Shown: positions 22,191-30,505 of the stretch, piece after piece
Position numbering within the stretch: the first letter of the stretch is position 1
How the letters are laid out: each line of letters opens with the position of its first letter
Source: Archaeoglobus sp. UBA230
GTDB taxonomy: Archaea > Halobacteriota > Archaeoglobi > Archaeoglobales > Archaeoglobaceae
Assembly: GCA_002507545.1 (NCBI GenBank)
Contig: DAVR01000047.1
Span: forward strand, 1-36,389
Length of the DNA: 36,389 bases
Direction of reading: 5' to 3'
Translations under genes and position numbers: made by a program
The notes under the pieces: model-generated
Told to the model about the DNA's origin: nothing
The model's input: only the letters and a program-made list of their open reading frames with translations
The model's database searches: none

Positions 22191-22214
22191 GAGTTATACT
22201 GAGTATGAAGAAAA

Positions 22215-22224
22215 TTTAATATAT
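22215..22224 (+). promoter_or_regulatory. TATA box of the four-gene unknown operon
   Basis: TTTAATATAT is a strong archaeal TATA box centred 27 bases before the ATG at 22247, with no Shine-Dalgarno sequence between. A leaderless operon transcript is predicted. Confidence 0.65.
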
Positions 22225-22246
22225 GTAATCCCAAAACTTTTTCGCA

Positions 22247-22552
22247 ATGTTGAAAAAAATCTATTCAATTATGGGACATGGCGCATGTATAATAAAAGAT
22301 GGCCAAGTTTCAGAAGTTTATCTTTTAAGTGATGATGAAGTGGAACTAATTTCAAAATTCGCTCCGCTAACCTTATCCCTCCCCGAAGACTTTAAATTTG
22401 GTATATTTGAAGATGAAGATGGAAGAGTTGTGATTTTGAAGTATTCTGAAGGTTTTGTAGGTCTCCCCACGCAAAAGGAGAACGTGATGGAGCTGATCAA
22501 AGAAATCGAGGTGAAATTGTATGATCAAGTTTTATCTTCTCAAAATGGGTGA
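22247..22552 (+). CDS. Conserved-looking small protein, unknown (cluster gene A)
   Basis: I do not recognise this 101-residue soluble protein. It has no signal peptide or membrane segment. The pattern suggests beta strands (SIMGHGACIIKDGQVSEVYLL and FKFGIFEDEDGRVVILKYSEGFVGL) separated and followed by helices, a small alpha/beta fold. It is first in a tightly packed four-gene operon and probably leaderless, since the TATA box is 27 bases upstream. The last 32 bases overlap the next gene in a different frame. A resemblance to roadblock-type modules is possible but not demonstrable by eye. Confidence 0.7.
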   Translation: MLKKIYSIMGHGACIIKDGQVSEVYLLSDDEVELISKFAPLTLSLPEDFKFGIFEDEDGRVVILKYSEGFVGLPTQKENVMELIKEIEVKLYDQVLSSQNG

Positions 22553-22853
22553 CGAAATCCAAGAGCATGGAGAGGGAGCAGAAAAATACAAAGGTATTCT
22601 TCTAAAATTTGACGAAATGGGTTTAAAGAGAGCCGTAATTCTTCTTCAAAAAGATGCACTTTATTTTGAAAAAAGTGGTGTCTCGGTAATCGTTTGTGTG
22701 AGTAGAGAGAACATCGGTGCTGCAAAGATATTTTCGAAGAAGATAATGAGCAAATCCAAGAAGGTAGACCTCAGCTCACTTGAGGAAATTTTTGAATTTG
22801 CTGAAGAACTTGAGAGAATGAACCTGAATGGTATTGCAAAGTTTCTAAGGTGA
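22521..22853 (+). CDS. Small protein, unknown (cluster gene B)
   Basis: A 110-residue cytosolic-looking protein of unrecognised family. Strands around AVILLQKDALYFEKSGVSVIVCVSREN are followed by a helical C-terminus (EEIFEFAEELERMNLNGIAKFL). The ATG at 22521 has the Shine-Dalgarno sequence GAGGTG seven bases upstream, placed inside gene A, so the 32-base overlap looks real. A second ATG at 22545 is less well supported. The stop is four bases before the gene C start, so the operon is tightly coupled. Confidence 0.7.
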   Translation: MIKFYLLKMGDEIQEHGEGAEKYKGILLKFDEMGLKRAVILLQKDALYFEKSGVSVIVCVSRENIGAAKIFSKKIMSKSKKVDLSSLEEIFEFAEELERMNLNGIAKFLR

Positions 22854-22857
22854 GACG

Positions 22858-23367
22858 ATGCTGTACGAAGTTCTTGCAATCGTTTGCGGAGGATTTTTGG
22901 GGTTTGCAGCAACGTGGAAATTTGTCTCAACAAGCATTAAAGAGGAAAAAAAGAAGGAAGAGGAGATTAGAAGAGCAAAGATATCGTCAATTTCAACAGC
23001 CGTTGAAAAGAGAGTTTCTGAGAGTAAAATGACAAAGCCACCATCAGACCTGAGCGAATTTGTAGATTACCTCAGTGATAAATATATACTCGGAGAGATA
23101 ACCATTCTGACTCCTGAAGGTTTGCCAATTGTATCAAATAGCTCAACTTATGAGGAGGATGCGGCAGTGGCTCCTGAAATTATGAGAGTTGCCAGAAGAC
23201 TTCTCAACTCAGACAGAATAGTTCTCTCCGGTGAAGATAGCAGAATACTCGTCATGCAAGCAAACCCTGATATAATACTCCACGCAAAAATTGCGAGAGA
23301 TATATCCAAGAGAGAAATGGACAGAATTCGAGATGAGGTAAACATGGTGATGGAGGGGTTGTTATGA
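22858..23367 (+). CDS. Membrane-anchored roadblock/LC7-like protein (cluster gene C)
   Basis: 169 residues. The N-terminus has one hydrophobic helix (about 2-22) and a highly charged Lys/Glu stretch (EEKKKEEEIRR), fitting a single membrane anchor. The C-terminal part (about 58-169) reads ITILTPEGLPIVSNSS, a helix (VAPEIMRVARRLLN), then strands (RIVLSGEDSRILVMQANPDIILHAKIA) and a final helix. This order resembles the roadblock/LC7 (MglB-like) fold that regulates small GTPases or forms scaffolds; the match is by eye and needs a profile search. Its start follows gene B by four bases and its stop overlaps gene D (ATGA). Confidence 0.72.
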   Translation: MLYEVLAIVCGGFLGFAATWKFVSTSIKEEKKKEEEIRRAKISSISTAVEKRVSESKMTKPPSDLSEFVDYLSDKYILGEITILTPEGLPIVSNSSTYEEDAAVAPEIMRVARRLLNSDRIVLSGEDSRILVMQANPDIILHAKIARDISKREMDRIRDEVNMVMEGLL

Positions 23368-23987
23368 TACACGCTTTTTTAATTCTCCTGACCCTCACGA
23401 CCATGCAGGCCAACCCCGGAGATGTTTTAGATGTAACCGTAAACGAGTCTGCAGTTCTGAGTGTGAATGATAGTTGCGTTTATTTCATTGAGAGCATGAC
23501 GAATACCTTAGACGCTGATGCAGGAAGTCACGAGGTTAAGGTGGGGATAAATTGCTCTCCAGGTATCAAAGAGATAAAAGCCAGTGGAGAGACTCTGATG
23601 TTGATTAACGTTTCGGAAGCTAACAAAACGTACGTTTCAACCTACGCTGCTCAGATGGAAAGAAAAAACCTCGCCTTACAGAAAAAGATCGAAAAACTTG
23701 AAGAGAATCTGAATGAGATGAAGACAAAGTACGAGGAGAGTGAAAGGCAGAAAGCTTTGCTTAAAATTGATAACGAACTGCTTCAAAACCAGATAAAATC
23801 ACTCCTCGATGAACTGAACAAGAGTCAGAAGGAGTTGAAAGAGAAGAAGGGGACTTTAAGTATCCTCCAGAGCCAATTACAATCTCTGAGCAGACAAAGC
23901 CAGATATATAGACTGGTGACTTTCTTCATTCTGTCGCTCTTCGTTGGCTCCTATGCCGCCTTGCTATACATGTCCAAAAAAGAATAG
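23364..23987 (+). CDS. Type I membrane coiled-coil protein (cluster gene D)
   Basis: A 207-residue protein of unrecognised family. A short signal peptide (MIHAFLILLTLTTMQA) is followed by a small beta-like domain with two cysteines (about 20-90: DSCVYFIE, INCSPG). A long coiled coil comes next (about 95-180; QKKIEKLEENLNEMKTKYEE and heptads beyond), then a C-terminal membrane helix (about 183-202) ending KKE. The head and coiled coil are predicted to be outside the cell with only a tiny cytosolic tail. The ATG overlaps the gene C stop. Genes C and D would place one anchored protein on each side of the membrane. Confidence 0.75.
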   Translation: MIHAFLILLTLTTMQANPGDVLDVTVNESAVLSVNDSCVYFIESMTNTLDADAGSHEVKVGINCSPGIKEIKASGETLMLINVSEANKTYVSTYAAQMERKNLALQKKIEKLEENLNEMKTKYEESERQKALLKIDNELLQNQIKSLLDELNKSQKELKEKKGTLSILQSQLQSLSRQSQIYRLVTFFILSLFVGSYAALLYMSKKE

Positions 23988-28328: not shown

Positions 28329-28898
28329 ATGGATAGTGAATCGAAGTCTGTTCAGTTCATAAAAGATGTGGTCTCAACATTAATTATCGTTGCGGTCATA
28401 GTCGGTGGAGGAATTGCCATTACAGGCACATGGCCCTTTATGGTTGCGGTTGAGTCTGGTAGCATGGAGCCACATTTATATCCGGGCGATGTCGTGTTTC
28501 TTGTAAGCATTGCAAGGACGGGTGGAGTGGTTACTTGGGAGGAAGGAGTAAAGGAAGGATACCAGAGCTTTGGGAATTATGGTGATGTCATAGTCTATAA
28601 ACCGAATGGCTATGGAAAGCCGATTATTCACAGAGCGATAGCCTATGTGCACAAAGGGGAGCATATACCAGCCATTGTTAATGGCCAGCTGGTTTACACA
28701 AACCAGATAGCGGAGAATGACGGATACATAACTCAGGGAGACAATGTTAATACGAACAAACTCCCCGATCAGGCAGTTCCAGCAGCGTTTTCACCAATTG
28801 GAGAGAGAATTAAGCCTGTAAAGGAGGAATGGATAATAGGGGTTGCAAAGTTCAGAATCCCTCTCATCGGCTACATCCGCTTGCTGATTCCCATTTAG
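28329..28898 (+). CDS. Signal peptidase I, archaeal/ER type
   Basis: Membrane serine protease that removes signal peptides from exported proteins. Ser45 in VESGSMEPHLYPGDVV is the nucleophile. As in the archaeal/eukaryotic (S26B) type, the bacterial catalytic lysine is replaced by His101 (PIIHRAIA), with Asp138 in ITQGDNVNTN. An N-terminal membrane helix (about 13-33) anchors it, and the C-terminal RIPLIGYIRLLIPI may be a second short membrane segment. The length is 189 residues. The start codon is only 19 bases from that of polB on the other strand, and its stop overlaps the SepRS stop. It presumably processes the exported proteins encoded elsewhere in this window. Confidence 0.93.
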   Translation: MDSESKSVQFIKDVVSTLIIVAVIVGGGIAITGTWPFMVAVESGSMEPHLYPGDVVFLVSIARTGGVVTWEEGVKEGYQSFGNYGDVIVYKPNGYGKPIIHRAIAYVHKGEHIPAIVNGQLVYTNQIAENDGYITQGDNVNTNKLPDQAVPAAFSPIGERIKPVKEEWIIGVAKFRIPLIGYIRLLIPI

Positions 28899-30505
28899 TC
28901 TACCTCCGCTTTAACGGTAACAAAAACCGGACCGCGAACGTCAATTTTTCCTCTTTTCCAGAGTATGTATCTCCTCAGGTTGTCCTGAATGTAGAGGTTT
29001 ATGTCTGAGAGGTTCTCTACAACTCTAACCTTTACCATAACCTCCTTATCACCCGCAAATGCAGCCTCCTCAATTTTCCTCGCTGAGAGGTAAGAGATGG
29101 CATCAATATATCTTATTCCAGTCGTTACGCCTTCCTCAAAGTAACTCCTCCACCTTCTCGTTCTCGGTATCCCGTATATATCCCCATTGTAAACAACAAC
29201 TTCGTTGGCATAGGCAGGACCGCACAGCTTTGTGTTTTCCTCCTCTTCAACGACAAAAACTCTGACAGTTTTGTCAAACAAATCTCCTTCATATGCAAGG
29301 AACTTGCATGGACTTGGAGCTGAAGCATTTTTCTCCGCCGTTTCAGCAATACTTTTGGCGATTTTCAGACCAGTCACCGTCTGGGGGACACTCTTAAGCT
29401 TTATTCCCCTCGCTATGTCCGTATCACTCAGCCTGACCTCCCCATAAATCTGCGGATATACCATTTTTCTCACATCATCATATCCGTGAAGTATCATCGC
29501 CAATCTTTCAACGCCAAGACCAAGGTTCATGACGGGATACTGGATATCATACTCAGCAAGAGCGGTTGGAGAGTAAATACCGAAAGTAGCAATCTCTATC
29601 CAGCCATCACTATACTTCGTGCTTGAACCGACGAGTTTTGGGTGGAAAGCATAAACCTCTGTTTGAGTGTCGGGGATGTAATATTTGCTCCTCTTCTCAT
29701 CCTTTCTGAATTTGAACTTTTCAAACCCGAACTGTCTCAACAGGGCTTCGGCAACAGCTTTGCCGTCATCAACATCTACATCTTCGTCAACGAGAACACA
29801 GCTTGCAGAGAAGTAGCTGTAAAGCCTTGTCGCGTCCTCTCCCTGCTCCTTCCTGAAGCACCTGTCTATGCTGAACAGCTTTATTGGGAGGGGGAGCTTG
29901 TCGGCTATGTGGCTAAGAGTTATGAACCAACCTGTAGTCATGTGGCTTCTCAAAGTCAAATTGCTTGGCAATGGTTTGAGTTCTTTAAATTCCGGAAAAA
30001 CCTCATCAAGAATTCTAACCGCAGTTATATCATCAACATCGAGGGCTTCGGCGATCAAATAGCTCAAATCGTCACCATCAATTTCTCCCTTTTTGTAACG
30101 ATGGAAGATTTTCTTAATGTCCTCTGCTGCTTCTCCAACATTCTTCCCAGTTATCTTCTCAATTAAGCTGATTTTGCCAGCAGACATTCCTACATTAGGT
30201 TTTGGAAGTGACGCGAGGTAAAAACAGCGGTCGAGGACTGCAAGAGCTTCCTTACCGAACTGCTTCCTGACATGAACATCCTCGACGATGACAGGGTTAA
30301 CGACTTCGGAAAAGCCAATTGAAAGGTAAGCCCTTCTTAATCTTTCTATTGTTCTAAAAACGGGATGTTCGGCACCAAATTCAAAACCAATTCTGGGATA
30401 AACCTTATTTGGGTCTCTTGTTCCCAATATCTCCTTTCCTGTTTTCCATGCCTCCTCAAAGTCTCTCCGCGATAGTTCCCTGTATTTCTGGGGGTCGAAT
30501 CTCAT
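28895..30505 (-). CDS. sepS: O-phosphoserine--tRNA(Cys) ligase (SepRS)
   Basis: Charges tRNA(Cys) with O-phosphoserine, the first step of the indirect Cys-tRNA route completed by SepCysS. This class II synthetase is related to PheRS alpha. The N-terminal MRFDPQKYRELSRRDFEEAW is characteristic of SepRS. Class II motif 2 is FSIDRCFRKEQGEDATRL and motif 3 is NLGLGVERLAMILHG, with YSYFSASCVLVDED between them. The 536-residue length fits the Archaeoglobus enzyme. SepRS is limited to methanogens, Archaeoglobales and close relatives, which makes it a strong taxonomic marker. SepCysS is not in the window. The ATG has a TATA element 26 bases upstream and is probably leaderless. Confidence 0.96.
   Translation of the reverse strand: MRFDPQKYRELSRRDFEEAWKTGKEILGTRDPNKVYPRIGFEFGAEHPVFRTIERLRRAYLSIGFSEVVNPVIVEDVHVRKQFGKEALAVLDRCFYLASLPKPNVGMSAGKISLIEKITGKNVGEAAEDIKKIFHRYKKGEIDGDDLSYLIAEALDVDDITAVRILDEVFPEFKELKPLPSNLTLRSHMTTGWFITLSHIADKLPLPIKLFSIDRCFRKEQGEDATRLYSYFSASCVLVDEDVDVDDGKAVAEALLRQFGFEKFKFRKDEKRSKYYIPDTQTEVYAFHPKLVGSSTKYSDGWIEIATFGIYSPTALAEYDIQYPVMNLGLGVERLAMILHGYDDVRKMVYPQIYGEVRLSDTDIARGIKLKSVPQTVTGLKIAKSIAETAEKNASAPSPCKFLAYEGDLFDKTVRVFVVEEEENTKLCGPAYANEVVVYNGDIYGIPRTRRWRSYFEEGVTTGIRYIDAISYLSARKIEEAAFAGDKEVMVKVRVVENLSDINLYIQDNLRRYILWKRGKIDVRGPVFVTVKAEVD

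Follow-up and report, generated by a model that had tools for sequence, protein, structure and literature searches.

A four-gene operon of Archaeoglobus sp. UBA230 encodes the proteins P1 to P4, one of which, P3, belongs to a family with a strong genomic link to the archaeal ATPase MinD. We favor the view that P1-P4 probably form a roadblock platform, tethered to the membrane, by which a MinD of the 1HYQ type is recruited or regulated. Neither gene order nor co-occurrence is proof of binding, and we infer a contact with MinD, the direction of control and the cargo. The operon lies in a contig that was analysed over its whole stretch of 36,389 nucleotides, here called the window. The genome to which the window belongs comprises 2.27 Mb in 50 contigs and is 99.9% complete.

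The four-gene operon and its predicted products

According to the open reading frame calls, the plus strand of the window carries P1 (22247-22552, 101 aa), P2 (22521-22853, 110 aa), P3 (22858-23367, 169 aa) and P4 (23364-23987, 207 aa). P1 and P2 overlap by 32 bases, P2 and P3 are separated by a gap of 4 bases, and P3 and P4 share a 4-base ATGA overlap. Direct reading of the sequence gives a BRE/TATA-like operon promoter on the same strand at 22208-22225, consisting of AAGAAAA immediately 5' of the TATA-like box TTTAATATATG (22215-22225). The box is 21 bases from the ATG of P1, whose transcript is probably leaderless. P2, P3 and P4 are preceded by the purine-rich ribosome-binding sites GAGGTGA, AAGGTGA and GGAGGGG, respectively, again by direct reading. 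ORF coordinates and direct reading agree with a first-pass annotation of this DNA, which had described four packed genes of these sizes and spacings behind one TATA box.

The same annotation had taken the four genes to be one unit, and the relatives bear this out. The order P1-P2-P3-P4 is kept in 13 relatives' loci (L021-L032 and L034), and because it recurs there the arrangement is not due to chance; the genes are co-conserved. The 4-base overlap of P3 and P4 is found in the window and in 13 of 13 complete relatives and, by coordinates, in four loci of genus g2 (L035-L038), which have P3-P4 and lack P1 and P2 in the stretch fetched. A TATA region resembling that of the window lies 5' of P1 in five same-genus loci (L021-L025), and the loci of other relatives have AT-rich counterparts. 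Relatives of P3 occur in 19 of the 59 genomes of the class (E<=0.01). Alignment A1 holds 18 of these 19 class P3 sequences, the interrupted one of L033 being excluded; in it the lowest identity with the window's P3 is 28%, so the genes have been retained across long divergence. The excluded locus (L033, genome G046) lies near a contig end and carries P1 and P2, with P3 divided between reading frames at L033:7776-8614. This sets the membrane part apart from the roadblock part and reflects either decay or a sequencing error.

Upstream neighbours vary among genera, so that the unit comprises the four genes P1-P4. It is very improbable that the operon serves the HAE3/MMPL transporter and the NPCBM/CARDB-domain protein encoded upstream of it. 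The transporter gene lies on the same strand, 56 bases from the operon, and in L022-L025, which are four of the five further loci of the genus, it likewise sits 5' of the operon (split in L024). However, the fifth of these loci (L021, genome G004) has an intact operon with a 131-aa transporter remnant upstream, and outside the genus (L026-L038) the window's transporter is unmatched beside P1-P4. We reject the transporter as part of the operon, P1-P4 being conserved without it. Elsewhere in the window, positions 28895-30505 hold a gene for O-phosphoseryl-tRNA synthetase (SepRS; Pfam), which is usual in this lineage.

P3 is composed of an N-terminal membrane helix, a charged linker and a C-terminal domain of approximately residues 62-169, as judged from alignments A1 and A7 and from hydropathy; at the family level this domain reads as a divergent roadblock-like one. 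The Pfam model Robl_LC7 weakly matched 7 of the 18 P3 members of the first set and, at E<=0.1, 13 of the 40 members of the enlarged family (best 3e-4). The window's own P3 has no Robl_LC7 match and stays below the gathering score, and against Pfam and NCBIfam models generally it gave chance-level matches, none over cut-off. The enlarged alignment A7 combines 15 of the 19 class P3 proteins with 25 of the 50 found outside the class. Its profile was searched against 177,635 PDB sequences, and the two best matches were roadblocks (E 0.008 and 0.047), the first of them being the Robl_LC7 protein 7f8f. The A1 profile gave three PDB matches, none a roadblock by name (best E 0.7), the single P3 sequence gave one (E 0.26), and a pattern scan of the genome's contigs with P3 returned zero relatives. 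Canonical roadblocks were represented by alignment A5, drawn from 12 of the 29 loci that carry one (28 of the 50 outside loci plus L034). In profile comparison with them, A7 aligned around the DG turn with a P value of 0.0016 and a probability of 16%, and the comparison with A1 was not significant (P 0.095). Hydropathy, the family-level Robl_LC7 matches and the A7 match to 7f8f together uphold the first description of P3 as membrane-anchored with a roadblock-like C-terminal half.

P1 and P2 had been described as cytosolic proteins without any fold. We keep the location and add a predicted fold for each, roadblock for P1 and roadblock/longin for P2, on the basis of AF2 models compared by Foldseek and VIA. 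The P1 model (14-sequence alignment, pLDDT 86.8) runs helix, two strands, helix, three strands, helix. This is the roadblock order and assigns the model to the fold of the roadblock/LC7 superfamily. The 50 best Foldseek matches of P1 (E 0.001-0.02) are mostly roadblock, Ragulator and dynein light chain structures with a few of longin type. In VIA the best matches of P1 are chains of Rag-containing complexes (Z 9.2), Rag C-terminal domains being among the matches, and the Asgard roadblock 7yh1_A follows with Z 9.1 over 96 residues (rmsd 3.0); chains of IclR and phytochrome likewise reach about Z 8. In the P2 model (15-sequence alignment, pLDDT 81.1) the first helix is missing and two extra C-terminal helices are predicted at low confidence. 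Ragulator/MglB and longin structures are tied for P2 in Foldseek and VIA: LAMTOR 5y3a_G reaches Z 8.9 (84 residues, 2.6 Å) versus Z 9.2 for the longin 4afi_A (81 residues, 2.2 Å).

For neither protein did a Foldseek match go past E 0.001. P1 had zero Pfam/NCBIfam matches at E<=1 and none to viral models at E<=0.001, and P2 had chance-level Pfam/NCBIfam matches, none over cut-off. Since Robl_LC7 in particular matched neither protein at E<=1, we treat P1 and P2 as relatives in fold and do not count them among the members of that Pfam family. No significant similarity came out of comparing the profiles A1, A3 and A4 with canonical roadblocks, or A3 with A1; A4, the alignment of P1, was made without the P1 of L034, which was found later. 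The evidence for the predicted folds of P1 and P2 is thus structural only.

N-terminally, P4 has a hydrophobic stretch; then come a small head containing two cysteines, a coiled coil, a C-terminal membrane helix and a short basic tail. Alignment and hydropathy agree on the Cys-containing head, the coiled coil and the C-terminal anchor, all of which had been proposed before. The head has at least two cysteines in the window's protein and in 13 of the 17 relatives, and zero in L035-L038. The further proposal that P4 is exported holds for the family better than for the protein from which it was made: of the 18 P4 proteins, 17 have an N-terminal stretch over the hydropathy cut-off and the window's own does not, so that export of the latter rests on its relatives. 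On these grounds P4 looks exported, and its coiled coil would lie outside the cell. Among Pfam/NCBIfam models, P4 matched those of coiled-coil type alone, and below cut-off.

Genomic linkage to MinD

Within the class, genome G016 (locus L034) has the genes for P1, P2, P3, P4, MinD, a 60-aa membrane protein, a roadblock and a DUF2226 protein in this order on one strand. From P1 to MinD these genes overlap or are at most 7 bases apart (gaps <=7 bases), and the roadblock is a canonical one (PF03259, 9.7e-15). In L035-L038, P3-P4 lead directly into MinD, which is followed by a 61-aa membrane protein. P3-P4 are thus physically joined to MinD in five class genomes, and all four genes are joined to it in one, G016. 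The linked ATPase is an archaeal MinD: the G016 protein scores 370.7 bits against NCBIfam minD_arch (cut-off 201.75), and the MinD of the window's genome matches PDB 1HYQ ('MinD-1') with 7e-144. We take 1HYQ to be the structure of A. fulgidus MinD, about 25 years old.

Upstream of P1 in G016, on the same strand, are two small ORFs (V4R-like by eye), a hydrogenase small subunit, a ferredoxin-like ORF (by eye), a hydrogenase large subunit and a 241-aa ORF. In the stretch from the V4R-like ORFs to DUF2226 (L034:6213-13889, contig C18), the hydrogenase large subunit ends with DPCLSCSTH and is without a C-terminal extension.

The genome of the window carries the corresponding parts on three contigs: P1-P4 (C20), MinD with a 62-aa protein (C46), and a canonical roadblock with a DUF2226/DUF4388-like gene (C19). 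Compared with G016, its roadblock is 42% identical, its small membrane protein 62% over 52 residues and its DUF2226 protein 27% over 93. In the same-genus genome G001, which is a single contig, MinD lies at about 0.63 Mb, P1-P4 at about 1.10 Mb and the canonical roadblock at about 1.36 Mb; these distances of hundreds of kilobases mean that the parts are truly unlinked there. The small protein 3' of MinD, with a membrane helix and a coil, measures 60-74 aa (in the window's genome L043:7462-7650, C46) and may be the membrane partner of MinD. In genus g11, the MinD neighbourhoods of four of the five genomes were gone through, and it is absent 3' of MinD there. The MinD neighbourhoods fetched for G036 (L123), G006 (L131), G049 (L132) and G053 (L129) are left out of the listing. 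The roadblock contig of the window's genome (L137:2859-5163, C19) has the canonical roadblock and the DUF2226/DUF4388-like gene near a Cache-like membrane protein on the opposite strand (by eye). In G020 (L124:5882-7813), the genes opposite MinD and the membrane protein include a 220-aa roadblock lookalike (by eye; no Pfam match).

P3 and MinD also occur together where their genes are apart. Among the 59 class genomes MinD was found at E<=1e-60 in 19 of the 19 with P3 and in 8 others, and 32 have neither (Fisher, 1.6e-9). In within-genus shuffles, a procedure that leaves in shared ancestry inside genera, 6 of 100000 reached the observed overlap (1 of 20000 in a separate run). P3 presence is mixed within the genera g2, g3 and g13, and there it tracks the presence of MinD. 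The genomes with MinD and without P3 are G005 (79% complete), G020, G030 (9% contamination) and five of genus g11. At E<=1e-100, a cut picked after viewing the list, G005 and G020 are left in this group and 2 of 100000 shuffles reach the overlap. Re-searching 17 P3-negative genomes with the profile returned no P3; the 54%-complete G007 gave one weak match to the membrane segment (E 0.031). The canonical roadblock, at a cut of E<=1e-20 picked once the E values had shown a gap from 1e-22 to 1e-11, has 18 genomes in common with P3, the exceptions being G004 and G005 with one mismatch each way (24 of 100000 shuffles). At 1e-8 it is also found in twelve genomes without P3 (35 of 100000).

The A1 profile of P3 matched 69 of 392 genomes of the phylum, in 26 of 136 genera; 19 of the matches are in the class and 50 outside. 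All 50 outside neighbourhoods were fetched, and in 45 of them MinD lies downstream of P3 on the same strand with 43-52% identity to the copy in the window's genome. In 43 of the 45, MinD is 77-436 bases from the edge of the profile match. The distance is 838 bases with one ORF between in L069, and 1203 bases with two ORFs between in L087. No MinD was found nearby in the other five neighbourhoods, which are four loci of family f11 and L110. Alignment A6, made from the P3 proteins of 20 of the 50 outside loci, matched A1 with 98.9% probability (E 2e-17). A relative of the small membrane protein lies 3' of MinD in 22 of the 45 loci (tblastn, E<=1e-3). Profiles of P1, P2 and P4, scored after unknown residues X had been stripped from the ORFs, gave no convincing relative within the stretches of these 50 neighbourhoods; therefore P3 alone is broadly tied to MinD. 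L087:577-7158 (G129, family f17) holds tandem P3-like proteins and a 157-aa protein that is P2-like by eye (no match to the P2 profile), then MinD, and this stretch adjoins a pilus ATPase and a T2SSF protein.

The linkage also bears on the partner of the roadblocks. They could form a complex that serves a small GTPase in the manner of MglA/MglB or Rag/Ragulator, with MinD as a mere neighbour, and the fold matches to MglB, LAMTOR and Rag C-terminal domains are in line with this; nevertheless, we regard it as improbable. The genome, which is 99.9% complete, was searched with the Roc model (PF08477): nothing exceeded the Pfam cut-off, and two weak matches fall in ORFs of 571 and 603 aa. The linkage to MinD in 45 of 50 outside loci also argues against a GTPase complex. 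Assignment to an MglA/MglB or Rag/Ragulator system was rejected, as the Roc search (PF08477 only) found no Ras-like GTPase over cut-off. We keep the earlier idea of a scaffold or polarity device and replace its small-GTPase partner, the linked NTPase being MinD in G016, in L035-L038 and in 45 of 50 outside loci.

A proposed platform, its candidate cargo and its possible inputs

If P1-P4 form a roadblock platform for MinD, P1 and P2 would form a pair, or would associate with the P3 domain, on the inner side of the membrane, and the surface made in this way would bind MinD and control its ATP cycle or its location. The basic, hydrophobic C-terminus of MinD could contact the membrane. P4, held by its C-terminal helix, could use the outside coiled coil to tie the platform to the cell envelope or to sense the envelope. 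As an outcome, a membrane-associated machine would be positioned or switched, with roadblocks in the role that MinE, PomX or MglB-type regulators fill elsewhere. Roadblocks have been predicted to regulate NTPases (PMC4316618). A bolder version, to which we give less than even credence, is that roadblocks take the place of MinE or of GTPases in running archaeal MinD: in the plasma membrane, a platform like Ragulator, with P4 as an outside coiled-coil arm and an envelope or hydrogenase-linked input, would set the location of MinD and its cargo.

The machine might be the type IV pilus or the archaellum, with P1-P4 as an accessory, MinD and roadblocks placing or switching it, and P4 touching the pilus base or the S-layer outside. 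This is a special case of the platform reading with the cargo named, and we hold it tentatively, with somewhat more doubt than belief. A PilB3-type secretion ATPase adjoins P3-MinD in 11 of the 14 loci of families f13 and f17 (domains checked in two). MinD (arCOG00589) and roadblock (arCOG02603) proteins are noted in archaeal T4P loci by Makarova et al. (PMC4858521), and MinD2 of H. volcanii affects motility (PMC11588486). However, secretion ATPases occur in 58 and PilB3_C in 57 of the 59 class genomes, with or without P3; being near-universal, their presence cannot decide the cargo. Archaellin matches occur in 15 of the 19 P3-bearing genomes and in 31 of the 40 that lack P3, and a dependence of P3 on the presence of archaella or T4P was looked for in the class genomes and not seen. 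In the window, two queries gave zero secretion-ATPase matches at E<=1e-5, and the fetched stretches of the other 36 outside loci have none near P3 at the same threshold.

Alternatively, P1-P4 could be a signal-relay scaffold in which a hydrogenase or a receptor gives the input and the roadblocks sense this redox or hydrogen signal and relay it to MinD. We consider this unlikely. In families f6 and f25, 17 of the 21 loci encode the large subunit of a NiFe hydrogenase close to P3-MinD, and G016 has it upstream of P1, with a single ORF between. All of these hydrogenase-bearing loci (f6, f25 and G016) also have a canonical roadblock and, by eye, a related small protein of V4R type. The Cache-like membrane protein (by eye) encoded opposite the canonical roadblock and its DUF2226/DUF4388-like neighbour in the window's genome would fit a receptor input. 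On the other hand, hydrogenase matches are absent from the window and from L035-L038, L043, L126-L128 and L130, the hydrogenase link is one of neighbourhood only, and the small V4R-like proteins are without a Pfam match. The hydrogenase-flanked P3-MinD loci are L072, L074, L077, L089-L094, L097-L099, L102, L106, L114, L115 and L117; in L085 a REC-MetOD2 response regulator lies near P3-MinD. Under the platform reading that we favor, both type IV pili and hydrogenase count as no more than candidates for a link.

Comparison with known systems

In the PomX/PomY/PomZ and MinE/MinD systems a dedicated activator controls a ParA/MinD ATPase, and to our knowledge these activators are not roadblocks. 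A roadblock-MinD platform, or a roadblock acting on a ParA/MinD ATPase, was not found in the open-licence literature searched, nor was a characterised complex to which P1-P4 would belong. The Ragulator/LAMTOR complex consists of several distinct roadblocks that one anchored subunit holds at the membrane. In P3, by contrast, the anchor is a transmembrane helix fused to the roadblock-like domain, and no Roc-type GTPase was found over cut-off (Roc model only). In Myxococcus MglA/MglB, roadblock-fold proteins regulate a polarity-setting NTPase. The likeness of our system to MglA/MglB (PMC4316618) consists in roadblock proteins, an NTPase and the theme of polarity. Our system differs in its linked NTPase, which is the ParA-type ATPase MinD, in the membrane fixation of P3 and in the absence of a Roc-type GTPase over cut-off.

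Closer in organism are two archaeal cases. In Haloferax, the archaeal MinD protein MinD2 likewise shares an operon with a protein of unknown function, HVO_0596 (PMC11588486). HVO_0596 is, however, encoded downstream of MinD2, and the words 'roadblock' and 'coiled' are absent from the text of that paper. The T4P-associated MinD/FleN (arCOG00589) and roadblock (arCOG02603) proteins belong to the same two classes as the proteins described here and are noted separately as T4P regulators or associates in PMC4858521; the pair of membrane roadblock and MinD and the P1-P4 operon are not met in the passages of its main text. According to a 2024 paper (PMC11588486), H. volcanii was until then the one species in which the functions of archaeal MinD had been investigated. 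A conserved gene set travelling with a 1HYQ-type MinD makes it testable whether roadblocks regulate a ParA/MinD ATPase, and the answer also matters for the question of how archaeal cells position their surface machines or signalling complexes. If the bolder version is true, polarity would here be set by roadblocks that act on a ParA/MinD ATPase, and the solved MinD-1 would gain partners. Regulation of such an ATPase by roadblocks would extend the theme of roadblocks and NTPases beyond Ras-like GTPases.
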